A stretch of 64,000 nucleotides of DNA from Paraprevotella clara YIT 11840 (lineage in GTDB: Bacteria > Bacteroidota > Bacteroidia > Bacteroidales > Bacteroidaceae), in contig NZ_JH376616.1 of NCBI RefSeq assembly GCF_000233955.1, forward strand, positions 1 to 64,000, read 5' to 3'. Of the stretch, positions 30,104 through 58,383 are shown one piece after another. Numbering within the stretch: the first letter of the stretch is position 1; the number at the start of each line of letters is the position of its first letter. The notes under the pieces are model-generated. The model made no database searches. It saw only the letters and a list, made by a program, of their open reading frames with translations, and had not been told where the DNA came from. The translations under genes and the position numbers were made by a program.

Positions 30104-30170
30104 CAAAGATGAAAAATATCGGTGACACCGCCATACGGCTGTGTTACCGATATTTTACGCCATGTCTCAA
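30104..30170 (-). promoter_or_regulatory. PUL operator-promoter site 6 (upstream of GH5-GH43)
   Basis: Minus strand: TTGAGACAT half-site (30162-30170), TAAAAT in the middle, then a degenerate second half (GGTAACAC) ending at 30138. A 26-nt spacer follows, then CATCTTTG at 30104-30111, one base off TAnnTTTG. This is the weakest of the six sites. It overlaps the hairpin at 30113-30156. Confidence 0.55.
30113..30156 (-). terminator. Hairpin after the HTCS gene, probable terminator
   Basis: AAAATATCGGT (30113-30123) pairs with ACCGATATTTT (30146-30156), with further pairing inside (CAC/GTG, CC/GG). Read on the minus strand it follows the HTCS stop and ends in five T. It overlaps the spacer and half-site of the operator for the next gene. 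Confidence 0.65.
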
Positions 30171-30195
30171 AATATATAAAAAAAGAACTATTTTC

Positions 30196-33100
30196 TCATT
30201 TCTTGGCCAAATGTTCCTTCATATAAACCATAGGAGACATTCCATACAAAGCTTTGAACTTAATGGAGAAAGATGCGGCATTCTCAAACCCACAGGCATA
30301 CATCACTTCGGTAATATTACGATGCCCCGAAGCCAATAGATCGGCGGCCTTCTTAAGGCGTATGTTACGCACAAGGTCGCGTGGTCCTTGATTGGTCAAT
30401 TCTTTCATTTTACGGTGCAAGTGTGCTCGGCTGATACCCACCTCCCGCGCAATAAGTTCCACACTTAGATAAGGATTGTTGATATTCCCATTGATAATCT
30501 GCAATACACGTTCCAATAGCTTGTCATCGGCTGATTGGGATACGACAACATCTATGTTCTCTTCAGGCATTTCTTTACCCCCTACTTTGTTACGAAGAAT
30601 ATCATACGAAGCTATCAGGTTCCGTATAGTATATTCCAATACTTTGATATTAAACGGTTTTTCAATATAAGAATCAGCACCCGTACTCAATCCTTCTATT
30701 TTGTCTTTTTCATGGGATTTGGCCGTAAGCAATACCACTGGTATAAAATTCACATTAATGTTGGTTTTTATTTTGGCACAAAGCGTATAGCCATCCATTT
30801 CCGGCATCATCACATCGCTCAAGACTAAACTCGGAGGAGTCCGTAAAACTTCGCTCAACGCTTCCTTCCCATTGCGACAAGGCACGACGTAATAATGTTT
30901 TCGCAACTCCTCCGATAGATAACTTCGTATTTCATCGTCATCTTCCGCGATAACAATACGTTTGCGATGCTTGGTTTTGTTCTCATCCTTATTCCCTTCG
31001 GTTACGGCAGAATCTTCTTCTATTTTCAAAATTGATTCTTCCGCTTTTTCTTCTATGGGTGTTTGCAAAAGTTCTTCCGGTTTAAGATGAGCGTTGCCAA
31101 GGGGTAATACGACCTTAAACGTGCATCCCTTACCGTCTGTATTGTTGTAAACCGAAATTTCACCGTGGTGTAAGGTGACAAGTTGCTTCGTAAGGTTCAA
31201 GCCGATTCCGCTTCCGGCCACATTATAATTAGTTATATTGTCCGCCTGATAGAAGCGTTGGAAAATTTTCTCCATCTTGTCGGGCTCTATCGTCAATCCA
31301 TCGTCCCAAACTTCCATCGAAACGTCGTGTTCACCCTGTTTCAAACGTATACCGATGTTACCTTTAGAAGGAGTAAATTTGAAAGCATTGGACAAAAGAT
31401 TCATGATCACTTTATCAAAGTTCTTTTTATCCAACCATATCTCTATGTAGTCTGTATCGTATTCAAAATGAAAGTGGATTTCTTTTTCACGCGCCTTACT
31501 GTCGAAGAGTTCATATACGTCTCGTACAAAATCTACAAGGTTCACAGGCTGCATCTTCATCATCATCTGTCCTTTATCTATTTTACGCAAATCCAGAATC
31601 TGGTTGACAAGAGCCAAAATACGTTCCGCATTGCGGCTCATCATACGGTAAGACCTTTGCCTTATTTCATCGAAGTCTGTATTAATAAGATGTTGCAAAG
31701 GTCCTACAATCAGCGTCATAGGCGTACGAATCTCATGACTGAGGTTCATGAAGAATTGCAACTTCATTTCGTTCAATTGTTCCGCATGTATATGTTCCTG
31801 CAAACGTAATCTGGCCTCTTCCCGCAAACGACGACTATGAACGAATCGCATGATAAGAAACATCATTATTAAAAAGTAAACGATAAACGCCGGTAGGCTG
31901 GCGTACCACGGAGAGCGGACTATCACGGTAAAGGCTTTGACATCGGACTCCAGACCATTAACGATTGCCTTTACTCGGATTTTATAAGTTCCTGACGGCA
32001 AATGGTTTAAAGTCAGCATGCCTGATGAACCCGCCATAGCCACGTAGGGTTCGTGGTCTATGGAATACAGATATTTCACACCGTCCGGCATGTCATACGA
32101 CATCGTTGAAAGACGTATGGAAAAAGTATTATCCTCATGGCACACCTCAAACAGGTTGGATTCCATTACGGGGCGATTCGTCACCTTGAAGAATCCCGAT
32201 TTTGTATCCGTTGTTACCTCCTTATCTCCTATGCGCATTTCTACCAGTTGCAGACAAGGACGTTTACCGGCGTAGCGTACTGTTTCGGGCGAGAAGAGTG
32301 TAAGTCCGCTGTTTCCACCGAAAACCATCAGACTGTCCCATCCACAGGATGCCCGTTCGCTAAACTCATTTCCTTGCAATCCGTTGCTTGCATAATAGTT
32401 GGTGAAATGACTCCGCTTCAAATCCAACATGGACAAACCGTGAAAGGTACTTATCCATATATTATTTTGGCCGTCGAACCGCATGGAAGCTATATAGTTG
32501 TCAGGCAAGCCATCGTCGGTAGTGTAATGCCGCAGTGTACGTCCGTGCCTGTCCAACACGAATATTCCGTCATGTGTGCCCACCCATAGCAGGCCTTCCT
32601 TGTCTTCGACCACCGTATGCACCGGTTGCTCCATCAATACGCAGTTGCATCCGAATGCAGAAACAAAGTCATCATGATTCAAATCCAAGCAAGCCAATCC
32701 GCTACTCATGCAAATATAGAGCCGTCTCCCGTCTTCAGATAAGCACAAATCATTTACCCACATATTTGTCAATGAGTTGCCTTTCGGTTCAGAAGCCTCT
32801 GGTTTTACTTTGTATTCCTTCAGTTCATGTGTTTTCAAATTATATTTCTTCAGTCCGTCACCTAAAGTTGCAATCCACAAATTATTTTCCTTATCAGCCA
32901 ATAAACGAAACACATGTACTGCCATTCCCTTACTGGTAAACGGAAGACGGTTAAATTGTCCCGTCTTCTCGTCTAACCATCCGGCTCCCTCCCAATAAGA
33001 ACCCAACCACAACTTACCATCTTTATCTTCCGCTATACAGGTTATCGTAGCAGGCAAACTTCCGACATCGGAAGCATAATGACGGACTGTATATGATTTA

Positions 33101-34239
33101 ATGTCTAAAGCATAAAGGCCATCGTTATCCGTACCTACCCATAACGTACAATCCTTTCCAGCATAAACAGACATCACACAGGCTGAGCCTATGATATCAT
33201 ATCGCCCGGACTTATAGCCCACATAGCTGAAACCGCTATCTTGATGAGGTTGTATGAAAACCCCTTTCTGAAATAGCCCTAACCAAATATTGCCATCTCG
33301 GTCTTCCAATATACTGCTTATCTTAGCGTGTTTCAAATCCACTTGTGCATGAAAGTAGTCGCAAGGAGATGGTGAACGTTCTCCGAACCGATAATTCATG
33401 GTTCCTTCCCCATCCGTACCCAGCATAACCTGTCCGTCCGACAATGGACAGAGAACGGAGACATTCAGATGAGCAGTCCCCTCTATCGGCAAGAAAATGT
33501 TACGTGAACCGTCGAAAACAAATAGTCCTTCTGAGGCCGATCCCATGAAAAGATGTCCTTCACGGTCAAAAGCCAAGCAACAACGTCCCAAGACAGACGC
33601 CTTCTCACAAAGATAACGGCTGACTTTTCCATCTTTCCGGCGGTATATACCGTAATTTGTCACAGCTAACCAAACAGCACCATCAGGCGCTTCCACCATA
33701 TCCTCCACATTATTGTCTCCCTCAAACATCAAGGTATAATGCGCTTCATCCTTCCCCGACGGAATCACATACATGCCGAACCCTGAAGTACTTACCCATA
33801 CGTCGCCATTGCGCACTTGCAACATGGACATGACATGGCATGCTTTTAAGGTATCTTCTTTATTTATAAAAGGTATAGTCCGAAACCGTCCGGTGTTTTC
33901 ATCATATACCTGTAGCCCTTTGTCCATACCAACCAGCAAACGCCCGGCTGCGTCCTCCAACGCACAGGTTACGTGTTCGGAAAGCATCGAACCCGATTTC
34001 TGTGTTTTATGAAAGGTTTGGAATTGGAAACCATCGTAACGGTCAAAACCGTTACGGGTAGCAATCCAAATAAATCCCCTCTTATCCTGATACACTTGGT
34101 TTACCAAACTACTCGACAATTGTGCATCAGAAGTAAACAAACGCCCCTCCTGTCCCTTCATCTCTGAAGCGACAACTATGTAACATAATAGAATAAAATA
34201 GAAGGCAAACGAAACGTGCCATGTTTTTCCTGTTCGCAT
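30196..34239 (-). CDS. Hybrid two-component system sensor/regulator (HTCS) of the PUL
   Basis: 1347 aa, the classic HTCS order. An N-terminal signal/anchor is followed by two seven-bladed propellers built from 'reg_prop' repeats such as 'VNQVYQDKRGFIWIATRNG' (~30-690), then a Y_Y_Y domain (~700-775) and a membrane helix near 786-806. The kinase has phospho-acceptor His in 'NLSHEIRTPMTLI' near 833 and HATPase 'NLLSNAFKFTP'. The receiver has phospho-acceptor Asp in 'LSDVMMPEMDGY' near 1141. An AraC-type helix-turn-helix occupies ~1240-1347. HTCS proteins bind a glycan fragment in the periplasm and activate their PUL. It sits between GH5-GH43 and the divergent secreted protein, and no operator copy precedes its own start. 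Confidence 0.96.
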   Translation of the reverse strand: MRTGKTWHVSFAFYFILLCYIVVASEMKGQEGRLFTSDAQLSSSLVNQVYQDKRGFIWIATRNGFDRYDGFQFQTFHKTQKSGSMLSEHVTCALEDAAGRLLVGMDKGLQVYDENTGRFRTIPFINKEDTLKACHVMSMLQVRNGDVWVSTSGFGMYVIPSGKDEAHYTLMFEGDNNVEDMVEAPDGAVWLAVTNYGIYRRKDGKVSRYLCEKASVLGRCCLAFDREGHLFMGSASEGLFVFDGSRNIFLPIEGTAHLNVSVLCPLSDGQVMLGTDGEGTMNYRFGERSPSPCDYFHAQVDLKHAKISSILEDRDGNIWLGLFQKGVFIQPHQDSGFSYVGYKSGRYDIIGSACVMSVYAGKDCTLWVGTDNDGLYALDIKSYTVRHYASDVGSLPATITCIAEDKDGKLWLGSYWEGAGWLDEKTGQFNRLPFTSKGMAVHVFRLLADKENNLWIATLGDGLKKYNLKTHELKEYKVKPEASEPKGNSLTNMWVNDLCLSEDGRRLYICMSSGLACLDLNHDDFVSAFGCNCVLMEQPVHTVVEDKEGLLWVGTHDGIFVLDRHGRTLRHYTTDDGLPDNYIASMRFDGQNNIWISTFHGLSMLDLKRSHFTNYYASNGLQGNEFSERASCGWDSLMVFGGNSGLTLFSPETVRYAGKRPCLQLVEMRIGDKEVTTDTKSGFFKVTNRPVMESNLFEVCHEDNTFSIRLSTMSYDMPDGVKYLYSIDHEPYVAMAGSSGMLTLNHLPSGTYKIRVKAIVNGLESDVKAFTVIVRSPWYASLPAFIVYFLIMMFLIMRFVHSRRLREEARLRLQEHIHAEQLNEMKLQFFMNLSHEIRTPMTLIVGPLQHLINTDFDEIRQRSYRMMSRNAERILALVNQILDLRKIDKGQMMMKMQPVNLVDFVRDVYELFDSKAREKEIHFHFEYDTDYIEIWLDKKNFDKVIMNLLSNAFKFTPSKGNIGIRLKQGEHDVSMEVWDDGLTIEPDKMEKIFQRFYQADNITNYNVAGSGIGLNLTKQLVTLHHGEISVYNNTDGKGCTFKVVLPLGNAHLKPEELLQTPIEEKAEESILKIEEDSAVTEGNKDENKTKHRKRIVIAEDDDEIRSYLSEELRKHYYVVPCRNGKEALSEVLRTPPSLVLSDVMMPEMDGYTLCAKIKTNINVNFIPVVLLTAKSHEKDKIEGLSTGADSYIEKPFNIKVLEYTIRNLIASYDILRNKVGGKEMPEENIDVVVSQSADDKLLERVLQIINGNINNPYLSVELIAREVGISRAHLHRKMKELTNQGPRDLVRNIRLKKAADLLASGHRNITEVMYACGFENAASFSIKFKALYGMSPMVYMKEHLAKK

Positions 34240-34373: not shown

Positions 34374-34440
34374 TTGTGACATCAAATAAAATTCATGCGA
34401 CATAAATTGAAGGCTTTTGCATTCAAAACTTATACTTTTG
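34374..34440 (+). promoter_or_regulatory. PUL operator-promoter site 1 (upstream of the 1172-aa secreted protein)
   Basis: TTGTGACAT at 34374-34382 and TGCGACATAAA at 34396-34406 form a direct repeat with 21-nt period. A 26-nt spacer then leads to TACTTTTG at 34433-34440, a perfect TAnnTTTG. The translation start at 34509 lies downstream; earlier in-frame ATGs fall in the operator and are rejected. Confidence 0.82.
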
Positions 34441-34508: not shown

Positions 34509-37500
34509 ATGAAAAACAAGCATTACTTTACGTTGCTGTTTGCCACGCTGCTTAGCCCGATAGGTACGGCAGCTACGTCATGGACTCCGCCGACCGTAAC
34601 CGGCCAGGAGCTGAAAACAGGGGAAACACAGTATGCCTACAATGTCAAGGCTAACGGATTCCTTAACGCCAACTCAACCCAAACAACCGTTGTCACGGAT
34701 GAAGGGCTGCCCTTATTCATTACCTCTAGTACAAACAATACCTATTTATTGGGTACAACGGCAGATGAGGGACTTACCTACACTTACATTTATTATGAAG
34801 ACAATCAAACTTCAAAAGCGGGTGGGGAGGCAGGTCGGACACACCTGAACTGGACTATCGAGGCACAAAGCGACGGCACTTATTACATCCGCCCCGACAA
34901 AGCGGACGAAAACTACGGTGAAGATTATTTCCCCGATATGTGGATGGGATGGAAAAACGACGGGACTGATGTCATTTATCCCTTAATCGACGCGTATGAA
35001 GACACATACGGAATAAAATGGAAATTCGTCAGCGAAACGGAATACCAACACTTCTTCAACCTAAAGGCTCTCAGCGATGCCATGACCAAAGCACAAGACT
35101 ACGGTTTTGACATCACGTCAGCCCTAAATGTATATAACAACACTGCCAGTACCAACGAAGAATTGGAGGCTGCTACCACAGACCTGAAAACCAAAATCCG
35201 TGAATATGAAATCGAACATGCCACTTACGACAAGCCCGTGGACTTGTCCGACTTGCTTGAGAACTACAAATTCGAGGAGAACTTCGTAGCCAGCAGTAGC
35301 GACATTCCGGGTTGGACGCAAGAGCCGGCAAATTCATTCACCTATAGTGGCGACAATTTGAACAATACCACCACCAACTTAGGGCGTTGGGCCTTTGACG
35401 ACACCGGTTTCGCGGATGCCAAGATTTACCAGAGCTTGACAGACGTACCGAACGGAAAATATGAATTGAAAGTGGATTACATCTGTATAGACCAGAATCC
35501 GTCTAATCCGGAATCCGATGGAAAAGATCCCGAGGATTATTCCGTGACCGGCAACACCTTGTATGCCATCACTTCACTGGGTACCAGTTCTGTAAACCTG
35601 TCTTCAGGCAGCCGTTGGGGATCAGCATCGACATCCATTACATTCTTCGTTACAGACGGGAAATTGGAAACCGGAGTAGAAATGCTGAACTCTACCGCCA
35701 ACTGGTTCGTGTTGGGCAACCTTAAACTTTCTTATTACGGTAAAGATGCCATCAAGGACGAACTACAGGTCATTGTAGATAAGGCCAAAGCCGTGAACAA
35801 CGGCATGAACCAGACCTATCGGGACCGTTTGGACAAAGTAATAGCCGAAGCTGAGAATTATATCGCTAACGGTGGAAACGTGGCAGACATGACCAGCAAG
35901 GCCGAAGAATTAAACGAAGCTATCCTGGCGGCTGAAGAAAACGGTAAGGCATACGGTACATTACAACGTACCTACGAAGTAGCTGACAGTATATTGAACA
36001 CACTGGAAGGTGAAGTGAATGATGACATCATGGCCTTGAGCGACTACATGGCCGAAATCGACATCGAAACCATACTGATTGAATATCCTTATACCACTGA
36101 AGAGTTGGGAGAAATTATCTCCAAAATGGACCTGCTGACCCAATCAGCGCAACATTCACTCATTACTGAAGGAACAGACGTGACAAACTTCATCACCAAC
36201 CCCTCGTTTGCGGAAAGCGTGAACGGATGGATTGTTGATGAATTCGATGCAGAGAAGTTTGGCCTCAACAACGATTTACTCACAATCGGCGGCGGGCAGA
36301 CGGGTGAAATCTACCAAACCTTATTGGGTATGCCGAACGGCGTATACGAACTGAGCGTGCAGGCATTCCAACGTGCGGACTGGGACTTCGAGAAAATGGA
36401 CTCCTTATGGTCTATCGGCAAAGGAGACAGTTTGATTAGTACTGTGTCTTCATACATTTTCCTGAATGACGGCGAACAAAAGATAAAACACTCGTTCCAA
36501 GACGCTTTCACGGGTGATGAATTTACAGAGTCCTGGGATATCCGGCATGGGACGAAATCAGGCGTCATGATGCCGAACACGGAAAGCGGCGCCCGGCAAT
36601 ACTTTGACAAGGGCTATTTCAAGAACACCGTACAAGCTTTTGTCATCAACGGCAAACTTACGTTCGGCATACGCAATTACGGAGACCAATTCGAAAGGTG
36701 GGGATGCTATGATAACTTTACGCTGACCTACGTAGGCAAGGATTTGGAAAAAGTCATCGCCTTGCTTGATCAATGGTTGGAAAAGGCAGCACCTTACCTA
36801 GATGAGAAAATGAACGGAGCCATCAAAAAACAAATGACAGAGGCATATAACCGTGGCACGGAACTTGTAAACAACCCCGAGGCCGACTTCGATGAATGCA
36901 TTGAAGTGATTGCCACCCTGACCGAAGCACTTGGCAACGTGGATGAAAGCATCGAGTCGTTCAAATTCCTTGCACACGCCAATGAAGTGGCCGCCAAAGA
37001 CTTGGCATACGAAGGCGTGGCCGCTACGGAATCAGGGCAACAGCTCCAAGCCCTCTATGACACAAACAATGCCGGATACCAGAATGAATCCGACGAACTG
37101 ACCGTGGAGAAAATCGACGAAATAGCCGCCCAATACCTCGAACTGGCCCGTAACGCCAAAATAGAGAAAGGCATCAAGGCCAACGACGACCTCACTCATA
37201 TTCTCGTCAACCCGAGCTTTGAAGACCAATATGGCCTGGGCGAAGGCGTGAATGCCGTATACAACGCACCTTTCGGATGGACTTTCATGATAGACAGCAT
37301 CGTCTGCACAAAAGCTGAGGACATGAACGCTGCCGGATTGAACAATTTTACAAGCCCTGACAAGAATGTGGATTGTACGGACGGAGAATATGGATTCTGC
37401 CTCCAGTCCGGTGACTTCCCCGACGTATATATGTACCAGACCGTAGAAGGCCTGCCGGCCGGTTACTACAAAGTAACAGTAGACATGGTAGTACCTAACG

Positions 37501-38027
37501 ACAACGATGACTACCGCCTGGCCGGACAGCGTCTGTTTGTGAACAACGCGGCCATGTATTACGGTTGGGAAGATGAATACGACCTCGACCAACTTGAGAA
37601 AGGCCATCCCTACGAAGTGGAACGCACGTTCGGCGGATATGATGAAGTAGATTGCAAGAACAATGGCGACATGGGTGACAAAGGACCGCTCAACACCCTT
37701 GAAGTTGTAGTACACCTCGCTGCCAACGAACCTTTGAAATTGGGCGTACGCACCGACGGACACTGGGAATACACCTACAAGAGGACGGCTGCTCCCGAAG
37801 GTTGGAACAACTGCGGTTGGTGTAAGTTCGACAACGTGCGCCTGACCTGCGTGTCACTCGACAATGGAGAGTCTATCGACGAAACCCTTGCCACAGGCAA
37901 AGTGAAGTCCCAAGAAATCTACAGCGTGGACGGCATCAAGTTACCGCGTCTGCAGAAAGGCGTAAACATCCTGCGCCAGACAATGGAAGACGGTACGACT
38001 GTGACAAAGAAAATCATCGTGAAATAA
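34509..38027 (+). CDS. Large secreted repeat protein of the PUL, function unknown
   Basis: 1172 aa from 'MKNKHYFTLLFATLLSPIG', a signal peptide cut near 'GTAAT'. Three galactose-binding-like modules of the 'NPSFE...GW' type begin near residues 255 (degenerate), 560 ('NFITNPSFAESVNGW') and 897 ('LVNPSFEDQYG'). Between them lie helical FIVAR-like stretches ('YNNTASTNEELEAATTDLK', 'LDKVIAEAENYIANGG'). The end, 'KGVNILRQTMEDGTTVTKKIIVK' in layout, resembles tails of secreted Prevotella/Bacteroides proteins. No catalytic motif is seen. A surface glycan-binding or structural role fits its HTCS-type operator. It stands divergent from the HTCS. Confidence 0.8.
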   Translation: MKNKHYFTLLFATLLSPIGTAATSWTPPTVTGQELKTGETQYAYNVKANGFLNANSTQTTVVTDEGLPLFITSSTNNTYLLGTTADEGLTYTYIYYEDNQTSKAGGEAGRTHLNWTIEAQSDGTYYIRPDKADENYGEDYFPDMWMGWKNDGTDVIYPLIDAYEDTYGIKWKFVSETEYQHFFNLKALSDAMTKAQDYGFDITSALNVYNNTASTNEELEAATTDLKTKIREYEIEHATYDKPVDLSDLLENYKFEENFVASSSDIPGWTQEPANSFTYSGDNLNNTTTNLGRWAFDDTGFADAKIYQSLTDVPNGKYELKVDYICIDQNPSNPESDGKDPEDYSVTGNTLYAITSLGTSSVNLSSGSRWGSASTSITFFVTDGKLETGVEMLNSTANWFVLGNLKLSYYGKDAIKDELQVIVDKAKAVNNGMNQTYRDRLDKVIAEAENYIANGGNVADMTSKAEELNEAILAAEENGKAYGTLQRTYEVADSILNTLEGEVNDDIMALSDYMAEIDIETILIEYPYTTEELGEIISKMDLLTQSAQHSLITEGTDVTNFITNPSFAESVNGWIVDEFDAEKFGLNNDLLTIGGGQTGEIYQTLLGMPNGVYELSVQAFQRADWDFEKMDSLWSIGKGDSLISTVSSYIFLNDGEQKIKHSFQDAFTGDEFTESWDIRHGTKSGVMMPNTESGARQYFDKGYFKNTVQAFVINGKLTFGIRNYGDQFERWGCYDNFTLTYVGKDLEKVIALLDQWLEKAAPYLDEKMNGAIKKQMTEAYNRGTELVNNPEADFDECIEVIATLTEALGNVDESIESFKFLAHANEVAAKDLAYEGVAATESGQQLQALYDTNNAGYQNESDELTVEKIDEIAAQYLELARNAKIEKGIKANDDLTHILVNPSFEDQYGLGEGVNAVYNAPFGWTFMIDSIVCTKAEDMNAAGLNNFTSPDKNVDCTDGEYGFCLQSGDFPDVYMYQTVEGLPAGYYKVTVDMVVPNDNDDYRLAGQRLFVNNAAMYYGWEDEYDLDQLEKGHPYEVERTFGGYDEVDCKNNGDMGDKGPLNTLEVVVHLAANEPLKLGVRTDGHWEYTYKRTAAPEGWNNCGWCKFDNVRLTCVSLDNGESIDETLATGKVKSQEIYSVDGIKLPRLQKGVNILRQTMEDGTTVTKKIIVK

Positions 38028-38055
38028 TCCCATGATGAATTCTTATAGATGACAA

Positions 38056-38088
38056 GGGGGACAGAATATCAGTTCTGTCCCTCTTTTT
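38056..38088 (+). terminator. Terminator after the 1172-aa secreted protein
   Basis: Stem GGGACAGAA/TTCTGTCCC (38058-38066 and 38073-38081), followed by C and five T. Confidence 0.9.
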
Positions 38089-38115: not shown

Positions 38116-38182
38116 TTGCGAGATAATGAAAACAACATGCGACATAAAGGAACGCCAGAACACTACTTTATGGCTAACTTCG
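38116..38182 (+). promoter_or_regulatory. PUL operator-promoter site 2 (upstream of the sugar symporter)
   Basis: TTGCGAGAT at 38116-38124 and ATGCGACATAAA at 38137-38148, then exactly 26 nt to TAACTTCG at 38175-38182 (one base off TAnnTTTG). A TATTTTTG at 38111-38118 overlaps the left half-site and could be an alternative promoter. The spacing shared with other sites favours the downstream box, which fits a start at 38215. Confidence 0.72.
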
Positions 38183-48831: not shown

Positions 48832-48864
48832 AATCATCATTCTTTTTTTGTGTTTACACTGTCT

Positions 48865-50574
48865 TTATTCGAACGAACTGCTTTCTCCGCTTGCAAAGGC
48901 TGGGTTCTGCTCCAAATACAGATTAACTTTTAGCTCGTCCTCGTTATAAGGCCAATAAATAGCCTCCATCTTCGAAAGTTTACTCTGCACGGCAGAACCG
49001 TTCGTCGTATATTTACGTTTGACTTGTTCTACCAAATAATCCGTATTACCCTCACGACGTGCACGACGTACCAAGTCGAACCATCTTTTCCCCTCGAACA
49101 TAAGTTCTCGCTGGCGCTCGGCCATCACAAGGTTGTCCATCGTGCTTTTTGTCGTATACAACGTGCTGTCCAGGACCGCCACCTTATTCTTGTCACAATT
49201 GGAACGGAGATTTACTGCATTCACCAGCTTGAAAGCCTCGGACAGCTTCGGGTCCTTTCCATTCTCTTTGTCAATGGCCAGCTGTACCAATGCTTCGGCT
49301 TTCATCAGCATAATATCCGTCAGACGGTAAACTATCCAGTTAGCCGAACAATAACTTGCCCTATAAGCCGTACCGTAAGACACGGCTAATTCATCGGATG
49401 TGGAAGCTGACAAATCAATAGTGGCACCGTTTGTGACATACTTGTTAATCTTGAAATCCGTAGAAGTGGAACGCTGCAAGCTTTCATAGTAACGTGTATC
49501 ATACATGTTATTATAAACCTGGTAAGAATGGTCCGGAATATCCGTAGCTATGAAATCGGCAGGACGGAAAAAGCCAGGAAAAGTTTCTTCATTGCCATAA
49601 CCATGGCTCACAGCTTCATTGGAAAGCATATTGTCATTGTCCATATAAGTCAATTCAAAAATACTCTCACTGCTGTTGCCATCCACAAATAATTGGGTAT
49701 AGGCGCTGCCATACATGGTATTGGTACTGTTCGCATCGCTAATCAGGGGATATCCTTCAACTAGTTTATCTACCACACCGTTCACAAGGCCACCATACTC
49801 TCTGTATTTCTCATTATACTCTTGTAGTTTGGCATTGATGACCGTATCGGCATACCATATACACTTTTCGTAATCTTGTTTCCACAAATACATCTCACAA
49901 AGCATGGCATGGATAGCATCCTGCGTGATTCTTCCGGTTTGGTACAAAGGAGTTGTTTCCGGATAAACTTTCACTGCGTCATTTTGAACTGATTCGAGAT
50001 CTTTTATCAGCGCATCCAATATATCATCGAATTTACTGGCCGGTAGAGCCAACGGCTGGTTGTCGTCCACATATGCCTCCGTCGTATAAGGAACGTCGCG
50101 AAAGGCACGAATCAAATAGAAATAACACAAGTCACGCAACGCCGAAGCTTCTGCGATTGTCGCTTTCAAAGCACTCTGCGTATAGTCCGGCGACTTCTCT
50201 GCCACTTGGGGAGCATACTTTATAATCAAATTGCAACTGTTGATTACGCTATAGAACTTCTCCCATTTCGTATAAGAATTGTTCGCCCGCAAGTTCTCTT
50301 GAAAGATATTGGACAAGTCAACATTCGTATTCACATTGTTGCCCGCCACGATATTGTCTGAACGGACTTCACCCCAAACCATAAGCCGGTACACGAAGTC
50401 GCCACTTTGCATCGTAGAGTAACAGCCGCTTATCATATTGTCCACATCGCTTTTTTCATCCCAGAAATTCTCCAGCACAATATCATTCAATGGCTTGATG
50501 TCCAAAAAGTCTTCACAACCGGAAAATGAACATACGGCTAACGCTGCCGACATTAAGATTGCATATGATTTCAT
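48865..50574 (-). CDS. SusD/RagB family nutrient-binding lipoprotein (pair A)
   Basis: About 569 aa from 'MKSYAILMSAALAVCSFSGC', where the last Cys is the lipidation site. A longer frame to 50748 would run into SusC and is rejected. 'EDFLDIKPLNDIVLENFW' (just after the Cys) is the typical mature SusD start. TPR helices include 'YSVINSCNLIIKYAPQVAEK' and 'EASALRDLCYFYLIRAFRDVPY' in layout. 'ELMFEGKRWFDLVRRAR' near the end is the family hallmark. It works with the SusC at 50598-53933, 23 nt upstream. Confidence 0.96.
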   Translation of the reverse strand: MKSYAILMSAALAVCSFSGCEDFLDIKPLNDIVLENFWDEKSDVDNMISGCYSTMQSGDFVYRLMVWGEVRSDNIVAGNNVNTNVDLSNIFQENLRANNSYTKWEKFYSVINSCNLIIKYAPQVAEKSPDYTQSALKATIAEASALRDLCYFYLIRAFRDVPYTTEAYVDDNQPLALPASKFDDILDALIKDLESVQNDAVKVYPETTPLYQTGRITQDAIHAMLCEMYLWKQDYEKCIWYADTVINAKLQEYNEKYREYGGLVNGVVDKLVEGYPLISDANSTNTMYGSAYTQLFVDGNSSESIFELTYMDNDNMLSNEAVSHGYGNEETFPGFFRPADFIATDIPDHSYQVYNNMYDTRYYESLQRSTSTDFKINKYVTNGATIDLSASTSDELAVSYGTAYRASYCSANWIVYRLTDIMLMKAEALVQLAIDKENGKDPKLSEAFKLVNAVNLRSNCDKNKVAVLDSTLYTTKSTMDNLVMAERQRELMFEGKRWFDLVRRARREGNTDYLVEQVKRKYTTNGSAVQSKLSKMEAIYWPYNEDELKVNLYLEQNPAFASGESSSFE

Positions 50575-50597
50575 ATTTCTTCGCTTTTGATTATTAT

Positions 50598-53500
50598 TTA
50601 GAAATCTACGGTCACACCCAAGGTAAAAGACTTCGCACGTGGTGTCTGACCATTGTCTTGTGCCACACCGTAACTTCCATAATTGATTTCGGGATCCACA
50701 CCCTTGTATTTCGTCAATACAAACAAATTGTTCGCACTCACATAGCAACGTAATCCCTTAAGCCGTAATGTCCGAGCCACCTTACTACTGAACGAATACG
50801 ACAGTTGCAAATAATTGAGCCGCAGGAACGAACCGTCTTCCACAAACCTGTCACTGACCAACGTGTTGTAATTGGATACGGCACCGTTGCTTAATGTCCC
50901 GTACATAGCCCGTGGAATCGGGGTTACATCCCCTTCTTTACGCCAACGATAATTCACGGCCTGGCTTTGATTATTGTTCGTTATCATAGACTCGGCATCC
51001 AGACGGGCCAAATTCAGAATCTTATTACCTACACGGTAATTGAACTGGGCATTCAACCTCCAACGGTCGTAATTCAACGTGAAACCAAAGCCTCCCGTAA
51101 GCTTAGGCAATGAAGAACCGAGGTATACAATATCCAACTCATTAATATTGCCATCATGGTTGATGTCCTCGTAAATGGCATCTCCTCCTTTGAAATCATA
51201 ATCTTTCGACTCATTTTCAGCATTCGAGAAACAGTACTTTGTCCGTTTAGGATTCCCCTTGCTGTCCCGAATGATTTCCCCATTGGCATTCAAAACCACC
51301 GGAGCCGTCTTTCCGTCTGCCAGAAACTGTTCTTGTTCGGCCACACTCATATCCGCAAAAGTCTCGTAATGATATTGATATACTCCTTTGTAACGGAAAC
51401 CGTAAATTGCCCCGAAAGGATTGTTCAATTGCACACGCTGCAACACGTTACGGTTTTCTTGTGTAAACTTGGTATTCAACATGTTCAGTACGGTGGCATC
51501 CATTTCGAGAATTTCGTTCTTATTGTTACCGAATGCTACATTGAAATCGGCAGAAAACTTACCGGCTTTGATAATCCGGTTTGTCGTTATATTGAATTCC
51601 CAACCCAAATTTCGCATTTTACCAACATTCCTATAAGCCAATTTGGAGAATCCCGTACTCGAAGGTATGGAGACATCCCGCATCAACATGTCGTCCGTAG
51701 TTGAATGATACCATTCCAAAGTCAATTTCAAACGGTCGTTCAAGAATCCCAAATCCATACCCACATCGTACGTGGATTTTGTCTCCCAACGAAGGTCCGT
51801 AAGACGCATGTTCAGTTGGCTCATGGCATTCATGTCGATATAAGCCGAACCGGTGCCGAATTTACTTTCATAAAGATAATCCTCCGTAGGCTGGTTGCCC
51901 ACCATTCCCCAACTGGGGCGGATGGAAAGCATGGACAGCCATTTACGGCTCCAATCCATCCATGACTCGTCGATAATATTCCAACGTGCGGAGACGGCAG
52001 GGAAAACACCCCAACGTTGGTTCGGGCCGAATTTCGTACTGCCATCGGCACGCAGGGAGAAATCCAACGAATAACGGCTCTTGTACGAATAGTGCATGGA
52101 AAACGTGTAGTAGATGGAACGCCATTGCTTATAGCTGGTAGACATCTGCTTAATCAAACCACCGGCATCAGGACTTTCTATTCCTCCGGAAGGAAGCCCG
52201 CGAGACTCTGTAAGCTGTTGGTTGTTGTTACCGGATATGAGATTGAAGCGCGCCATGGCCATCATGGAATGGTCCTTATTCTTGAAAGCCGGAACGAGCG
52301 TCAACGTCTGTTTGGTATCGATGGCCACATTCTTCGAGCTTCCGGTATACCCCATATTGACATCCCCGTTCCAACTTATGGTCTTCAGTTCCTGAGGATA
52401 AAACTTGTCGATATACTCATTGAAAACATTCATATTTACCCGTCCGTTCCACCTCAACTGCCATTCGTCTTCAGTGGTTCCCAACAGGTTGTATTGGATT
52501 TCCAGTTCCGGAGTGATGTCGTAAGTCTTGTCACCGAATTTTGCCAAATGTGCACTGGCCACAGGATTTACCAAATCTTTCTGATTCCCGTTAAATACGG
52601 AAGAGGCGGACTGGAGCATCTCATAATACCTTCCGGTGGAAAGCCCCGTACGGGGATCCTGCTCATAAACGGACATATTGGGCATCTTTTTATAAGCAAT
52701 GGACAACAAGTCATCGTAATTCTTCTGGTTGTCCGTATAAGTCATGGCAAAGTTCGTCGAAATCTTGATACGGTCGCTCACATAATAGTCCAAAGCCAGA
52801 CGGGTGGACAAACGGTCCAACTTTTGTTGGATGACGGATCCGGTCTCATGGTCATAACCTCCTGAAATCCGGAAAGTGGCCTTCTCGCCTCCTCCTGTTA
52901 CAGAAACGTAATGATTCTGCCGTAATCCCCATTGGGTCACTTCATCCTGCCAATCGGTATTATTATTGTATTGTTCATACTCCGAAAAGGTAGGGTCGTA
53001 GTTCAATTCCGGAATATTAGAAGCCGTAGAGCTTTGCTCTGGATTGAAATAACTTTCTTTCAGCAACATCGTGTATTCATCACCCGTCAGCATTTTATAG
53101 CCTTCCGGTTGATAAGTCCCCGTAAGACGTAAAGAATAACTCACGGTCGGCGCTCCCCTTTTACCACGTTTGGTCTTGATTTCAATAACCCCGTTGGCTC
53201 CTTGCGAGCCGTAAATAGCCGTGGCGGCAGCATCCTTCAACACACTGATTTCTTCAATATCTTCAGGATTGACGTTCAACAACTGGGCAAAAGTTTCATC
53301 ATTGGCACTATTAATGTCGAACGTGCTCATGTCTACATTCCACGTATTACCGTTCACGACAATAAGGGGATTTTGGTTGGTCAGCGTACTGATGGAGGAC
53401 GTCCCACGCAAACGCATCGTAGTCCCACTTCCCAAATTACCGGAATTAGATATAATGTCAAGCCCGGCAATACGTCCCTGTAAAGCTTCATCAACAGTCG

Positions 53501-53933
53501 TAATGCCCAATCCTTCGAATTCTTTTGTAGAAATGGTTTGGGTTGCAAAACTGACTTCTCTTTCCGGAATAGCCAGCCCCCCACTGTTCAAACGTTTCTT
53601 GGATACGACAGACACCTCTTTCATTACACGTTGAGCCGACTCCAAGGTGATGTTATATACCGTACGATTTATGGGAAGTGTTTGCGTCTTATACCCCATA
53701 AAACTGATTTTCAGTTTATTCTTCGTACTTTTTACCTTCATGGCGAAATGGCCGTTGAAATCCGTGATTGTGGCATTGATGTTACGCCCAGTAGCATCAA
53801 CCTCACACACCGTCGCCCCTATCAATGTTTCCATCTCATCCCGGACAGTACCGCTCACGGACGTTATCTGGGCATGAACCGAACCGACCATAAGCCCAAG
53901 CCATATGACGGTCATCAATATTCTATTATTCAT
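50598..53933 (-). CDS. SusC/RagA family TonB-linked outer-membrane transporter (pair A)
   Basis: About 1111 aa from 'MNNRILMTVIWLGLMVGSVHA', a signal peptide. A CarboxypepD_reg-like domain ('SVSGTVRDEMETLIGATV' near 27) is followed by a plug with 'LQGRIAGLDIISNSGNLG' and 'DIEEISVLKDAAATAIYGSQGANGVIEI' in layout near 215-245, the SusC signature. The barrel ends in Phe ('FTLGVTVDF'). It imports glycan fragments with SusD pair A. It follows the 849-aa fasciclin gene after 30 nt and has no promoter of its own that I can see. Confidence 0.97.
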   Translation of the reverse strand: MNNRILMTVIWLGLMVGSVHAQITSVSGTVRDEMETLIGATVCEVDATGRNINATITDFNGHFAMKVKSTKNKLKISFMGYKTQTLPINRTVYNITLESAQRVMKEVSVVSKKRLNSGGLAIPEREVSFATQTISTKEFEGLGITTVDEALQGRIAGLDIISNSGNLGSGTTMRLRGTSSISTLTNQNPLIVVNGNTWNVDMSTFDINSANDETFAQLLNVNPEDIEEISVLKDAAATAIYGSQGANGVIEIKTKRGKRGAPTVSYSLRLTGTYQPEGYKMLTGDEYTMLLKESYFNPEQSSTASNIPELNYDPTFSEYEQYNNNTDWQDEVTQWGLRQNHYVSVTGGGEKATFRISGGYDHETGSVIQQKLDRLSTRLALDYYVSDRIKISTNFAMTYTDNQKNYDDLLSIAYKKMPNMSVYEQDPRTGLSTGRYYEMLQSASSVFNGNQKDLVNPVASAHLAKFGDKTYDITPELEIQYNLLGTTEDEWQLRWNGRVNMNVFNEYIDKFYPQELKTISWNGDVNMGYTGSSKNVAIDTKQTLTLVPAFKNKDHSMMAMARFNLISGNNNQQLTESRGLPSGGIESPDAGGLIKQMSTSYKQWRSIYYTFSMHYSYKSRYSLDFSLRADGSTKFGPNQRWGVFPAVSARWNIIDESWMDWSRKWLSMLSIRPSWGMVGNQPTEDYLYESKFGTGSAYIDMNAMSQLNMRLTDLRWETKSTYDVGMDLGFLNDRLKLTLEWYHSTTDDMLMRDVSIPSSTGFSKLAYRNVGKMRNLGWEFNITTNRIIKAGKFSADFNVAFGNNKNEILEMDATVLNMLNTKFTQENRNVLQRVQLNNPFGAIYGFRYKGVYQYHYETFADMSVAEQEQFLADGKTAPVVLNANGEIIRDSKGNPKRTKYCFSNAENESKDYDFKGGDAIYEDINHDGNINELDIVYLGSSLPKLTGGFGFTLNYDRWRLNAQFNYRVGNKILNLARLDAESMITNNNQSQAVNYRWRKEGDVTPIPRAMYGTLSNGAVSNYNTLVSDRFVEDGSFLRLNYLQLSYSFSSKVARTLRLKGLRCYVSANNLFVLTKYKGVDPEINYGSYGVAQDNGQTPRAKSFTLGVTVDF

Positions 53934-53963
53934 AATGTTCATTTATCAATTCGACATTACCTG

Positions 53964-56513
53964 TTATTCATATTTCTCCATTTGTTCTTCATCATACATC
54001 AATGCTCCGTCAATCAAATGTACCACGGCGTATGACGAGGTATATATGGTATTTTTGCCCGTATCGAAAGCATATTCACGGCACATATTGTTATAAAGAC
54101 CTTCAGTGGTCACCACATGCCGCGTCCGCCCGAGATTATCGGTCACAGTCATACCGTTATCGCCATCCTTATCCACGGTAATACTATAAAAGCGCCGGTT
54201 GGCCGGATTCAATTTGGCCGTTTCATATTTAACTCCACTTTCACTTCCATCGCCAATATATACGGAGTTATCCTGTATATGGTAACGCAAGAAATTCACG
54301 ATTCTGTTTTTAATCTTGTAGCGGACATCGGGATCGGTTGCATTATCGAAGTCTTCCCAATATGGGAGAACGCCTTTCTCATGCAATTCTTCTATGGCCT
54401 TATTGGTCGGCACGTAAACCGTATAATTGTATGTCTCGAACAAACGTACATTTTGGTCTACACAAGAATACTTGTCATCTATTTGGGATGTCAGCAAATT
54501 ATAATCCGTCGAATCCGGATCGCCACCGCTTAACAATTCCAGAAAACGGGAATACTCCTCATGTTCTGTCAATGTCTGGTAAACAGACTTCCGGCTTGTC
54601 ATCAAAACCTCATCATCAATCACGTAGGCTTTTCCGTTACCGTTTTCTGTCTGGTCATAAATAGTAGAAACACTGAGAGGAGCATTTTGCTCAATCTGCA
54701 AGCCACCACTGATTTTAATATCAGCTCCGCCGCTTTCGACCTTGATTGTCCCTCCGCCCTTCGTCTTATAATAAGCATGCCCATCTTCAATGTCACCCAC
54801 GATGATTACATTTTCCATAATATCGCTCAGACGGTTCATTATCGGATCATTATCCTTACCGGAAGAACTGTTGGCATAAACGGTTTCTTTATTATCGGGA
54901 TCTAAAATCGTCCCCGTGGTCATATCGTACTGATATTTATAAGCTCCCACGTTCTGCCTGTCGCTATCCCAAAAAAATTCGTAAAGTGTGGAAGTTCCTT
55001 TGCCATAGGTACAGGGATCCACATACTTCAAAAAAGCGTCATTCGTGGGGAGTATCAGGCTGTAACGTGTGTCCATTGAATTCAGGTAGGCATCCAGTCC
55101 TAATTGTTCAATGGCCCAATACACCACTCCCATGGTGGTGTTGCGACGCACCAGAGCCGGAAAAGAAACGGAACGGTAAGCCGCCGGGGCAAAAACCTTA
55201 TTGGTAAGGTAAACCACTCCGTTGCATCCCATAAAGCAACTGTCCACATCCTCTTCCTTTACTCCCATACTTACTTTGGCATCATTGGTGATACTTGCGA
55301 ACTTGGACGGGACATGGTCTACGAATGAAGTAATCATGTTGACATTGATCAATTTGTTCAACACGTTGATGTCCACATTGACCAAAGAATCATATACATC
55401 CTGAAGAGCCTTGCCTTCTCCGTCCCACCACTTTTCCAAAGCCGCATTGGTAGGCACCAACATGGCACCGCAATCATAGTTCAAAGTCTTGTTGTAGGTA
55501 TTGGTATACATATATTGGTTCCATTCCGGATCGAATTCCAAATAACCGGGCACTTGGTTTTGTATGTTATCGGGATCCTGCAAGTTAGATCCGCCATTGG
55601 CTTGCTTCGCAAAATAACGCAACACATAGACAGAATCCGACGTATCATACAAGCGGTTGTATTCCTGCGTGGCTGCCGCATCATAAATAGGGGCACTGTA
55701 CAAATCCAAAAGTTTGGCCCACTCGCTCATGACGGGATGCTTATGGATAATTTCCGCCATATTGTCTGCCGGTGTGATAACCTCTTCCACCTTTTGCACA
55801 TAACCGTTCTTGCATGTGATATCCGTGGGAGTCAGCACCTTTATACCATTCACCCATGACTCTGCCGCAGACAAGGATTTACCATTCGTCAACTTGGCCA
55901 AGTCACCATCCGTGATGTTATTGGTTTTCATGAACCTCGGCAACAAATGTATCATGGGCGCACTGCTGTTGTCCCGCATCAGGAGCACTCCGTCTTTACG
56001 TCCACGCACCTTATTCCAATACTTGGTTTGGGGCATGTCCTTCGGCATGATCCGAGCCACGGAATCGTAGACACTCAACGCCACCTCACGGCGCATGCAC
56101 ATCCCTTCTTGCGGAGGGTTTCCCGGTACATTCGACAGTAACTCTATCAGGTAAGCGTTATTCACCATGGAACTGTTGAGCAACATCTTTTTCTGAGCCA
56201 AGGACAACTGTTCATAGTTTTTCACGTTCCAACCGTTCTCTTTGAAAAAAGCTTCAAAAGCAACATCGTCCGCAGCAAACAAAGTCTTGCTTCCTGTTTG
56301 GTTCAATACGCTTGTCATGTTTAAATCGTTGATGAGACGAAGCGTATATTCATAATTACCTTGCTCCTGCAACCAACCATAAATGGAGTTGTTCAACCAC
56401 GTGGGTTGCCCAATCAGGTTTTCGTCCTGACACGATTGCATTCCAGCTGCAGCCAATAATGCAGCCGCCACAAAGGTCTTTACTTTAAATCGATGACAAA
56501 GACTATATTTCAT
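53964..56513 (-). CDS. Large fasciclin-domain lipoprotein (849 aa), first gene of the SusCD operon
   Basis: Signal peptide with lipobox 'AGMQSCQDENLIG'. Up to four FAS1-like units can be seen: near 40-230 ('SKTLFAADDVAFEAFFKENG'), 235-420 ('GAMLVPTNAALEKWW'), 425-620 ('TRYSLILPTNDAFLKYV') and 640-845 ('YNYTVYVPTNKAIEELH', closing with 'VVHLIDGALMYDE'). Tandem FAS1 proteins are adhesive or ligand-binding surface proteins in many organisms. In this PUL a glycan-binding role is inferred only from position. The operator-promoter site at 56549-56615 lies just upstream and should drive the seven-gene operon down to 40096. Confidence 0.85.
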   Translation of the reverse strand: MKYSLCHRFKVKTFVAAALLAAAGMQSCQDENLIGQPTWLNNSIYGWLQEQGNYEYTLRLINDLNMTSVLNQTGSKTLFAADDVAFEAFFKENGWNVKNYEQLSLAQKKMLLNSSMVNNAYLIELLSNVPGNPPQEGMCMRREVALSVYDSVARIMPKDMPQTKYWNKVRGRKDGVLLMRDNSSAPMIHLLPRFMKTNNITDGDLAKLTNGKSLSAAESWVNGIKVLTPTDITCKNGYVQKVEEVITPADNMAEIIHKHPVMSEWAKLLDLYSAPIYDAAATQEYNRLYDTSDSVYVLRYFAKQANGGSNLQDPDNIQNQVPGYLEFDPEWNQYMYTNTYNKTLNYDCGAMLVPTNAALEKWWDGEGKALQDVYDSLVNVDINVLNKLINVNMITSFVDHVPSKFASITNDAKVSMGVKEEDVDSCFMGCNGVVYLTNKVFAPAAYRSVSFPALVRRNTTMGVVYWAIEQLGLDAYLNSMDTRYSLILPTNDAFLKYVDPCTYGKGTSTLYEFFWDSDRQNVGAYKYQYDMTTGTILDPDNKETVYANSSSGKDNDPIMNRLSDIMENVIIVGDIEDGHAYYKTKGGGTIKVESGGADIKISGGLQIEQNAPLSVSTIYDQTENGNGKAYVIDDEVLMTSRKSVYQTLTEHEEYSRFLELLSGGDPDSTDYNLLTSQIDDKYSCVDQNVRLFETYNYTVYVPTNKAIEELHEKGVLPYWEDFDNATDPDVRYKIKNRIVNFLRYHIQDNSVYIGDGSESGVKYETAKLNPANRRFYSITVDKDGDNGMTVTDNLGRTRHVVTTEGLYNNMCREYAFDTGKNTIYTSSYAVVHLIDGALMYDEEQMEKYE

Positions 56514-56548: not shown

Positions 56549-56615
56549 TAAAGGTAACCTGAAATCATTTCAGACACTTTATTTTATGTCGCACGTTGTT
56601 TGCGGTATGAATCAA
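56549..56615 (-). promoter_or_regulatory. PUL operator-promoter site 5 (upstream of the fasciclin-SusCD operon)
   Basis: Minus strand: TTGATTCAT (56607-56615) and GTGCGACATAAA (56583-56594), a 26-nt spacer, then TACCTTTA at 56549-56556 (one base off TAnnTTTG). The left end overlaps the last codon of the GH43 gene by 4 nt. Confidence 0.72.
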
Positions 56616-58141
56616 AAAGGCTGCCCCACGTATTTTTTCCCGTCCTTTATATATATTCCCCTTCCCGGTTTTACCACACGCCGTCCGGAGAGGTCGTACA
56701 ATCCAGGCTTTGCCACCCCAGTCCTGCCTTCCGCTTTCACGGATTCCACGCCTGATACCGTCTGCGGCAAAAAATACCAATAGTCGAATTGCATGAGTTC
56801 ATTCCGTTTCGAAGTATCCGTGGCGCGGAAACGGAAATATATGTCATGCACTCCACAGACCACCTCGTCCAAATCCGCAGCCAGTTCCGTCCAATCCTGC
56901 GTCCCGCCCACATCAATTGTAGCCACCACATTCGACTGGCTATCGATACATACTTGTATGAACCCGTCGTTCACCCCCTGCCGGACACACAGCCGTACGC
57001 TCCGTGCCCCATCTTCGCCGAAATCAACGGCTTTCACTTTTACGTAATCACCCATGTCGAGCGAATCCAAATATACGCCCCGCCTATCGTCCTGTGCCGT
57101 ACGTACACCTACCGACAAGGCTATCGTTTCAGCCTCCTGACGGACGTAAGGCGACACGTGAGCCACAGGTTCGTATACCCCTTTCTTGGTCATCGGAATA
57201 TGAGGAATCGTACCATCTGCATTGTACTCGAATTGCTCCACGCAGACCGAACGCCGGAAACCGCTTCCTCCTTTAAGTTTGCCATTATGATAGAAAATGT
57301 AGCTACGTCCCTTGAAATCCACCACGGATGGGTGGGTCGTAAAACTCCCGTCGGGCGAGTCCATAATACGTCCTTGATATTTCCATGGGCCAGTAGGCGA
57401 ATCACTCATTGAATAAGACAAATGTTCGGGAATACCACCTGCGGCATAAACCAGATAATATTTTTCCCTCCGTTTATAAACCCAAGGTCCCTCCTCATAC
57501 TTGTCAACACCCACCAAACGGGTTTGTTCTTCACCGTTCTCATCCTTATATTTCTCTTCATATCCGCCCACCGTCTCTTCCGTCAAAGGGATTTCCGTGA
57601 TTTCACCATTATAGTCCACCATGCTCCGGGTCAGTTTCACATACCATAGCCCGTTATTGCCCCAATATAAATAAGCTTGCCCGTCATCGTCGACAAAAGC
57701 AGTAGGATCAATGTCGCGTATATCGTGGTTGATAAGGGCACGTCTCAACGGATCCCGCCAAGGGCCGCAAGGCGTTTCCCCCACCAAAACCCCGATGCCT
57801 TGCATCTGGATCGGGGCATACATATACCATTTGCCGTTACGCGGGATCACATGGGGAGCCCACGCCCCGTTGTCGCCGGCCCAACTGAAATCGGCCAATG
57901 ATGCCACTGTGCCGCAGTCGGTCCAGTTTACCATGTCCGTAGTGGTGTACAATTGCCAAAAAGTTTTCTGGTACCCTTCCCCCTCTTCGTTGTCCACACT
58001 GGTATAAAGGTAGAGGGTATCCCCGTAAACGCACGCCGCCGGATCGGCCGTATAACGTGTTTGTATGATAGGATTCTGCGCCCCGGCCTCTCCGGCAGCC
58101 AACATGCAGGCGGCAGCCCATGCAAAAAGATGTTTTTTCAT
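56612..58141 (-). CDS. Secreted GH43 glycosidase with CBM6-like module
   Basis: 509 aa. Signal peptide to 'GEAGAQ' (residue 22). The GH43 propeller (~28-335) has the base Asp in 'YTADPAACV' (33), Asp in 'IRDIDPTAFVDD' (near 142) and acid Glu in 'YEEGPWVYKR' (near 217). The CBM6-like module spans ~345-470 ('YVRQEAETIALSVGV', 'GDYVKVKAVDFGEDGARS'). The tail 'PGLYDLSGRRVVKPGRGIYI' in layout is a basic C-terminal signal like that of the GH5-GH43 enzyme. Homologs with this order are xylanases, arabinofuranosidases or xylosidases, so it probably trims arabinoxylan. It lies upstream of the SusCD operon with its own operator site. Confidence 0.92.
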   Translation of the reverse strand: MKKHLFAWAAACMLAAGEAGAQNPIIQTRYTADPAACVYGDTLYLYTSVDNEEGEGYQKTFWQLYTTTDMVNWTDCGTVASLADFSWAGDNGAWAPHVIPRNGKWYMYAPIQMQGIGVLVGETPCGPWRDPLRRALINHDIRDIDPTAFVDDDGQAYLYWGNNGLWYVKLTRSMVDYNGEITEIPLTEETVGGYEEKYKDENGEEQTRLVGVDKYEEGPWVYKRREKYYLVYAAGGIPEHLSYSMSDSPTGPWKYQGRIMDSPDGSFTTHPSVVDFKGRSYIFYHNGKLKGGSGFRRSVCVEQFEYNADGTIPHIPMTKKGVYEPVAHVSPYVRQEAETIALSVGVRTAQDDRRGVYLDSLDMGDYVKVKAVDFGEDGARSVRLCVRQGVNDGFIQVCIDSQSNVVATIDVGGTQDWTELAADLDEVVCGVHDIYFRFRATDTSKRNELMQFDYWYFLPQTVSGVESVKAEGRTGVAKPGLYDLSGRRVVKPGRGIYIKDGKKYVGQPF

Positions 58142-58175: not shown

Positions 58176-58242
58176 CAAACTTAATCATTATTCTGGCAAC
58201 GCTTTTCTTTCCATGTAACAGAAGCTTTGCTCTATGTCCAAT
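58176..58242 (-). promoter_or_regulatory. PUL operator-promoter site 4 (upstream of the leftward GH43)
   Basis: Minus strand: TTGGACAT (around 58234-58241) and TGTTACAT (58213-58220), 21 nt apart, then 26 nt to TAAGTTTG at 58176-58183, a perfect TAnnTTTG, 35 nt before the ATG at 58141. Half-sites are degenerate but the register is exact. Confidence 0.65.
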
Positions 58243-58316
58243 CCTACCACAAACGAACATTTCCGCCTATATTAAGGTAAAGGAGACACATCGGTAAAAA
58301 AGCACAAATTGTAGTA

Positions 58317-58383
58317 TTGAGACATAGCATAAAACTTATGCGACATCAAGTAAAACCACAAAACAATATCTTTCTTATATTTG
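58317..58383 (+). promoter_or_regulatory. PUL operator-promoter site 3 (upstream of the rightward GH43)
   Basis: TTGAGACAT at 58317-58325 and ATGCGACATCAA at 58338-58349, then 26 nt to TATATTTG at 58376-58383, a perfect TAnnTTTG. The ATG at 58478 follows after a 90-nt leader. Sites 3 and 4 share the 336-nt divergent gap and do not overlap. Confidence 0.82.

Follow-up and report, generated by a model that had tools for sequence, protein, structure and literature searches.

Six sites within a polysaccharide utilization locus (PUL) of Paraprevotella clara YIT 11840 are very probably the operators of the HTCS encoded at 30196-34239 of the window, the whole 64,000-nt stretch of DNA analyzed here; the HTCS would bind each of them as a direct-repeat dimer by the -33 region. 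The sequence-only reading had proposed that this HTCS reads the sites, and the proposal is now backed, on the side of sequence, by the uniqueness of the full pattern in the genome, its co-occurrence with HTCS orthologs, the conservation of the footprint and the geometry of a paralogous locus.

Genes and probable operators of the locus

ORF and domain scans placed the PUL at 26393-60142 of the window (Table 1). The HTCS gene is co-localized with susC/susD genes, and its product carries sensor repeats, HisKA, HATPase, REC and a C-terminal AraC HTH all within one chain. Among the 587 matches kept, the closest named relative by HTCS was an uncultured Paraprevotella (L034, 62% identity), and a plasmid search using the HTCS gene gave no matches. 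The large protein encoded at 34509-38027 had zero matches in Pfam, NCBIfam and PDB sequences and is a candidate for a new glycan-active family. Its start looked signal-peptide-like by eye, and the protein is retained beside the HTCS in two other genomes of the genus, G006 and G012, at 60% identity. Longest-ORF starts at 34395 and 38092 fall within or upstream of operators; the true starts of the genes after operators 1 and 2 are probably 34509 and 38215. The ORFs between 40096 and 56513 probably form one operon, since they are closely spaced. A pattern scan for terminator-like hairpins gave 8 in the scanned region compared to 9.8 in shuffles.

Table 1. Features of the locus in window coordinates; for sites on the minus strand, the number used in the text is the lower coordinate.
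Feature	Position	Strand	Details
Cellulase (GH5) + GH43 + GH43_C2 protein, predicted regulon member	26393-30022	-	likely starts 30016 or 30007
-7 box of operator 6	30104-30111	-	CATCTTTG, 5/6
Hairpin with T-run after HTCS gene	30113-30156	-	overlaps operator 6; folding energy
Operator 6, weak, before GH5/GH43 gene	30138-30170	-	13/19 consensus matches
HTCS	30196-34239	-	Reg_prop repeats, HisKA, HATPase_c, Response_reg, AraC-type HTH_18; domain search
Operator 1, before large ORF	34374-34406	+	TTGTGACAT-13-TGCGACATAAA, spacer AAA 34388-34390; 19/19
-7 box of operator 1	34433-34440	+	TACTTTTG, 6/6, 26 nt past operator 1
Large protein, predicted regulon member	34509-38027	+	likely start 34509
Terminator-like hairpin between large ORF and operator 2	38054-38085	+	pattern match only
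Operator 2, before GPH-type symporter	38116-38148	+	18/19; likely gene start 38215
-7 box of operator 2	38175-38182	+	TAACTTCG, 5/6
MFS_2 / GPH-type sugar:cation symporter, predicted regulon member	38215-39648	+	domain search
Fasciclin, SusC, SusD, two fasciclins, SusC, SusD; predicted regulon members	40096-56513	-	closely spaced ORFs
-7 box of operator 5	56549-56556	-	TACCTTTA, 5/6
Operator 5, before fasciclin/SusC/SusD operon	56583-56615	-	17/19; overlaps GH43-CBM6 gene end
GH43-CBM6, predicted regulon member	56612-58141	-	domain search
-7 box of operator 4	58176-58183	-	TAAGTTTG, 6/6
Operator 4, weak, before GH43-CBM6 gene	58210-58242	-	13/19; divergent from operator 3
Operator 3, before GH43 gene 58478-60142	58317-58349	+	18/19
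-7 box of operator 3	58376-58383	+	TATATTTG, 6/6
GH43-GH43_C2, predicted regulon member	58478-60142	+	domain search

All six 33-mers were found where the sequence-only reading had located them, and the claimed distance of 26 nt from the end of the site to a -7-like box was exact in 6/6. Three boxes are perfect TAnnTTTG (operators 1, 3 and 4) and three have one mismatch (operators 2, 5 and 6), as had been described; TAnnTTTG is the -7 box of the Bacteroidetes primary-sigma promoter. The common 33-nt form claimed for the sites held in part: the sites match it at 19, 18, 18, 17, 13 and 13 of 19 positions, and only operator 1 (34374) fits the quoted consensus exactly. The first half of operator 4 (58210) reads ATTGGACAT, one base off the TTGnGACAT frame. 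The direct repeat places about 21 bp between tandem half-sites, as published for AraC-type HTCS regulons (PMC3878776). The HTCS gene had been singled out as the exception, and indeed no operator of the six-site type was found before it.

Register and uniqueness of the sites

When at least 13/19 site matches and at least 5/6 box matches were required together, we observed 6 matches in the window, exactly the six operators, compared to 0.08 expected as the mean of 60 first-order Markov sequences as long as the window, a model that ignores AT-rich intergenic patches. An offset of 26 was the sole one of 61 tested that gave a box of at least 5/6 in all six sites, the intergenic background of such boxes being 34/2054 positions. 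By itself, the site rule (at least 13/19, box not required) gave 19 matches in the window for 15.5 expected, so the weak sites depend on the register of the box.

Across the 4.23-Mb genome, the full pattern with at most 3 mismatches of 25 fixed bases had 4 matches, all in the locus, and the reversed control had 0; matches outside the PUL under the 26-nt and box constraint, which the sequence-only reading had proposed to count, thus numbered 0 at this tolerance. The consensus was built from these six sites and such match counts are partly circular, while the register across sites and the conservation across species are not. Without the box, the same tolerance gave 33 matches genome-wide vs 17 for the reversed control. 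The top three were sites of this locus, whose fourth tied at 2 mismatches with C48:90365, and the latter disappeared once the box was required. Taken together, the excess of 6 over 0.08, the single shared offset and the genome-wide uniqueness of the full pattern led us to reject chance as the origin of the site set.

Architecture of the half-sites

AAA occupies positions 6-8 of the 13-nt spacer in 6/6 operators, compared to an intergenic AAA frequency of 5.9%. The same spacer position was A-rich (18, 21 and 18 of 30) in 30 family sites, a subset of the 69 exact matches reported below that covers 29 loci and does not include the window genome. A second A-rich stretch followed at a distance of 21 bp in these 30 sites (16, 14 and 22 of 30, where base composition predicts about 11). 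The spacer AAA and this repetition at 21 bp point to a bipartite half-site of 16 bp: each predicted half-site is TGnnACA-6-AAA, followed by a 5-bp gap to the next. Of the half-site as first described, the TGnGACA element is thus present, but that description was too short and overlooked the AAA of the spacer. The base before ACA is G in 9/12 window half-sites and another base in 3/12; half-site 1 of two sites in the related genome G017 reads TTGATACAT, also without the G. Counting from the box, the second half-site would abut or cover the -33/-35 element, the position expected for a class II activator, and no consensus proper to the -33 region was evident in the 30 family sites compared.

Conservation in the genus

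HTCS orthologs were found in three other genomes of the genus, G017 (91% identity), G006 (63%) and G012 (62%), the best further full-length match in the genus being at 38%. Among the 18 genus genomes, the full pattern occurred in 4/4 that carry the HTCS or an ortholog (at least 62%) and in 0/14 without, 7 of these 14 being less than 90% complete. The operators before the large ORF (operator 1) and the GH5/GH43 gene (operator 6) are kept in all four genomes; these two promoters retain site and box at 60-70% protein identity. The -7 box of operator 1 is identical in the window genome and the three others. In G006, 17/20 half-site bases and 8/8 box bases of operator 1 are unchanged, compared to 141/316 identical positions in the remainder of the region.

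G017 also retains operators 3, 4 and 5, located before the fasciclin operon and the two remaining GH43 genes. The stretches fetched from this genome hold no symporter gene at the corresponding place, and the symporter operator is a boxless, decayed relic whose first half is damaged. In G006 (L133:14398-16110) and G012 (L135:3-1556), the large ORF is followed by a gene other than the symporter, and a segment of the encoded protein is 56-59% identical to the C-terminal region of the GH5/GH43 protein.

Weak sites and the hairpin after the HTCS gene

A hairpin with a T-run at 30113-30156, probably the terminator of the HTCS gene according to folding, has a minimum energy of -30.8 kcal/mol for 111 nt folded (z -3.7) and is absent from the list of the terminator pattern scan. 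The spacer AAA and half-site 2 of operator 6 lie within it and the -7 box comes after its T-run, a position in the stem that may account for the degenerate half-site 2. The stem sequence differs in the G006 counterpart, where a stronger hairpin is nonetheless predicted at the same place (z -5.5), so the hairpin and operator 6 seem to be maintained together.

Sites 30138 and 58210 had been called degenerate and resting mainly on register. We agree, and they now also rest on the spacer AAA and on conservation in relatives. It could be argued that only the four strong sites are real, the weak two being chance matches kept by selective reading, given the number of matches when the box is not required (19 vs 15.5 expected) and the fact that half-site 2 of 30138 belongs to a hairpin stem. 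We consider this unlikely, since both sites have the exact register and the spacer AAA, 58210 is conserved in G017, and 30138 is conserved in three genomes, its counterparts in G006 and G012 showing TTGCGACAT without a mismatch and a second half that fits better.

A paralogous locus in the same genome

A locus on C23 (~120-180 kb) of the same genome is a paralogous PUL with homologs of the MFS, SusC, SusD, fasciclin and HTCS genes. Compared to the window, identities were 65% for the symporter, 55% and 45-56% for SusC, 45% and 40% for SusD, 43%, 33% and 32% for the three fasciclin proteins and 37-38% for the HTCS. The DNA-binding domains of the C23 HTCS (C23:150139) and the window HTCS are 47% identical. 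A counterpart of the large ORF 34509-38027 was not found in the C23 locus at E 1e-20.

The 21-bp period and the box distance are unchanged in the operators at C23 and in those near C23-class HTCSs from seven further genomes of the genus. The base before ACA, by contrast, is A/T in 36/36 half-sites (18 sites) of the C23 class vs G in 9/12 window half-sites (Fisher p 1.3e-7, an optimistic value since half-sites are partly orthologous). Rows with a 4/6 box were dropped by hand on both sides: L231:10626, with which the count becomes 38/38 A/T, and window 7087, with which G becomes 9/14. The two loci are thus alike in gene types, period and box distance, and differ in half-site (TGnWACA vs TGnGACA) and in the sequence of the shared genes, which are 32-65% identical. 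These comparisons indicate that operator sequence follows the regulator while geometry is constant, in agreement with a role of the HTCS in reading the half-sites and of the polymerase in setting the register. Aligned by eye, the DNA-binding domains gave too few second-recognition-helix candidates (GFEN, SIK/SVK) to claim a residue-to-base code.

The fixed distance to the -7 box would also suit an extended promoter element recognized by a special sigma factor in place of an activator site. This idea is hardly credible for a block that is a tandem repeat over two helical turns and stands before a -7 box of the ordinary type, and we rejected it because the bases change at the paralogous locus while the geometry stays constant.

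A further question is which regulator reads the operators. They could be read by a stand-alone AraC protein, by the paralogous HTCS C23:150139 or by both HTCSs, and the shared geometry of the C23 operators and the 47% identity of the DNA-binding domains make cross-talk possible. We nevertheless judge another reader very unlikely. The full pattern occurs in only 4 genus genomes, those with the window HTCS or its ortholog, whereas 8 carry an HTCS of the C23 class (presumed orthologs, at 36-38% identity to the window HTCS); the sites around these HTCSs have A/T where those of the window mostly have G; and the scan of the main ORFs between 26393 and 60142 turned up no further regulator. The HTCS at 30196-34239 is therefore retained as the probable reader.

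In the general form (at most 2 mismatches of 16), the genome of P. clara itself gave 19 matches vs 2 for the reversed control: the six operators, one place at window 7087 that falls within an ORF and has a 4/6 box, four on C23 and eight at other places. Among these, C17:146614 (L217) has a 6/6 box, the spacer AAA and a damaged half-site 1, and is followed 30 nt later by a SASA-type carbohydrate esterase gene; C21:307594 (L218) is upstream of a GH43 ORF or overlaps its start; C29:159234 is without the spacer AAA. The C17 and C21 sites may belong to the window HTCS or to another HTCS, and the regulon may extend beyond the locus. In view of these weaker sites, restriction to one locus is true of the strict pattern and not of the general form.

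The same geometry in other genomes

We analyzed 79 HTCS loci chosen solely for the similarity of their HTCS protein (the top 80 of 587 matches kept, less the ortholog L034). On a grid of tandem TGnnACA lags and gaps to TAnnTTTG, the cell of lag 21 and gap 30, which corresponds to the 26 nt that separate the 33-mer from the box, held 19 sites, compared to 5 in the next cell (21/31) and a mean of 0.12. These 19 sites come from only 16 of the 79 loci. The motif resembles those of related HTCSs except L033, L055 and L099, close relatives for which no site of the six-operator form with a box of at least 5/6 was found. A consensus-free repeat test on the 79 loci favored lag 21 modestly, with 18 boxes vs 1-12 at other lags. 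In three Prevotellaceae loci (L041:3189, L043:9899 and L057:9896), an operator begins ~85 nt before the likely HTCS start, which suggests that these HTCS genes, unlike that of the window, would be autoregulated.

Searching 101 family genomes with the exact pattern gave 69 matches in 32 genomes and 0 at lag 20 with equal total length; 4 of the 69 are the window locus and its G017 counterpart. The 30 family sites compared, 2 of them without a downstream ORF under the rule used, precede 28 proteins that include GH43 (4), Cellulase/GH5 (4), GH97 (3), SusC plug (3), and GH32, GH53 and SASA esterase (2 each). One of the 28 is a helicase, taken as L206 by its sequence, whose site is probably a false match.

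Outside the family, the exact pattern was rare, with 4 matches in 2/117 genomes and 1 for the lag-22 control. In one scan, nine places outside the genus were matched, and four of them precede glycoside hydrolase genes: GH2 (L155), GH97 (L156), GH3 (L161) and GH43 (L162), the last being 70% identical to the GH43 at 58478. The L146/L163 site has neighboring genes without an evident glycan link, and the L147/L157 site is beside an HTCS with no gene after it. L148-L150 were set aside as coding artefacts, since their sites overlap an ORF start and the first residues of this ORF look like those of atpD. At L155 (G237), operators at 9490 (+) and 5887 (-) have a TGCGACA half-site in the same register with the spacer ATA in place of AAA, and one of them precedes the GH2 gene. 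The DNA-binding domain of the HTCS-like regulator at this locus is only 36% identical; the likeness of the half-sites would possibly reflect convergent specificity.

Discussion

In E. coli, AraC binds araI1-I2 as tandem half-sites 21 bp apart, the proximal one adjoining the -35 region. The window operators share this arrangement, with 21-bp tandem half-sites of which the proximal one would lie by the -35 region. AraC is, however, a cytoplasmic arabinose receptor, neither membrane-bound nor phosphorylated, and recognizes another half-site. A phosphorylated HTCS dimer would place two AraC-type DNA-binding domains on one face of the helix at half-sites 21 bp apart, the two helix-turn-helix units of each domain contacting the two elements of its half-site. 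As no consensus is evident in the -33 region and half-site 2 would lie there, binding of the dimer would keep the sigma factor in place at a promoter with a usable -7 box and recruit the polymerase. A glycan signal would then switch on all six transcription units together.

The operator architecture is of a published HTCS type, and what is new is an unusually clear example at this locus (Ravcheev et al., 2013; PMC3878776). Of the 36 HTCSs of Bacteroides thetaiotaomicron, 16 have predicted motifs; these take the form of direct repeats with a mean of 21 bp from one tandem site to the next and track the DNA-binding domain (PMC3878776). These regulons resemble that of the window in having an AraC-type HTCS beside susC/susD and a direct repeat of ~21 bp, and the HTCS_Man motif has the same dimensions as the window operators, two 16-bp sites with a 5-bp spacer (PMC3878776). 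They differ in that the window genus is Paraprevotella-like and the half-site TGnGACA-6-AAA is particular to the window locus; in addition, the portion of that study considered here describes no fixed distance to a -7 box, unlike what we observed here (PMC3878776). Among the matches listed in the open-access literature, none dealt with a fixed distance from HTCS operator to box or with this locus. The register rule and the contrast with the paralog render the locus more useful than usual.

Response-regulator parts of BT4124 and BT4663 have been assayed by gel shift on PUL promoters holding predicted sites (mBio 2024, PMC11253607). Both resemble the window HTCS in their REC and AraC-type domains; their loci and targets are different, and the portion of that report considered here describes no operator register (PMC11253607). 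The same report states that tethering keeps HTCS phosphotransfer insulated (PMC11253607); the insulation of duplicated PULs would then lie in sensing and in the operator, which fits the base change between the window and C23.

Gut Bacteroidetes can carry dozens of HTCSs, and here one HTCS would be tied by rule to a six-promoter, plant-fibre regulon. In its general form (half-sites 21 bp apart, 26 nt to the box), the rule finds candidate glycan promoters in 32/101 family genomes. The paralogous pair in one genome, with the same geometry and other bases, represents a natural experiment on how cross-activation is avoided between duplicated glycan systems. We put forward, as a proposal with about even prospects, that the HTCS operators of the family obey one rigid law of bipartite 16-bp half-sites (TGnnACA-6-AAA), a 21-bp period and a fixed -7 distance. 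Once a whole PUL has been duplicated, the two regulons would be kept distinct chiefly by a single base pair, the one preceding ACA (G in the window locus, A/T in the paralog), which an altered AraC-type domain would recognize. If this law is true, the regulons of orphan HTCSs would be readable from sequence, and the operator would be the place where the insulation of duplicated PULs evolves.
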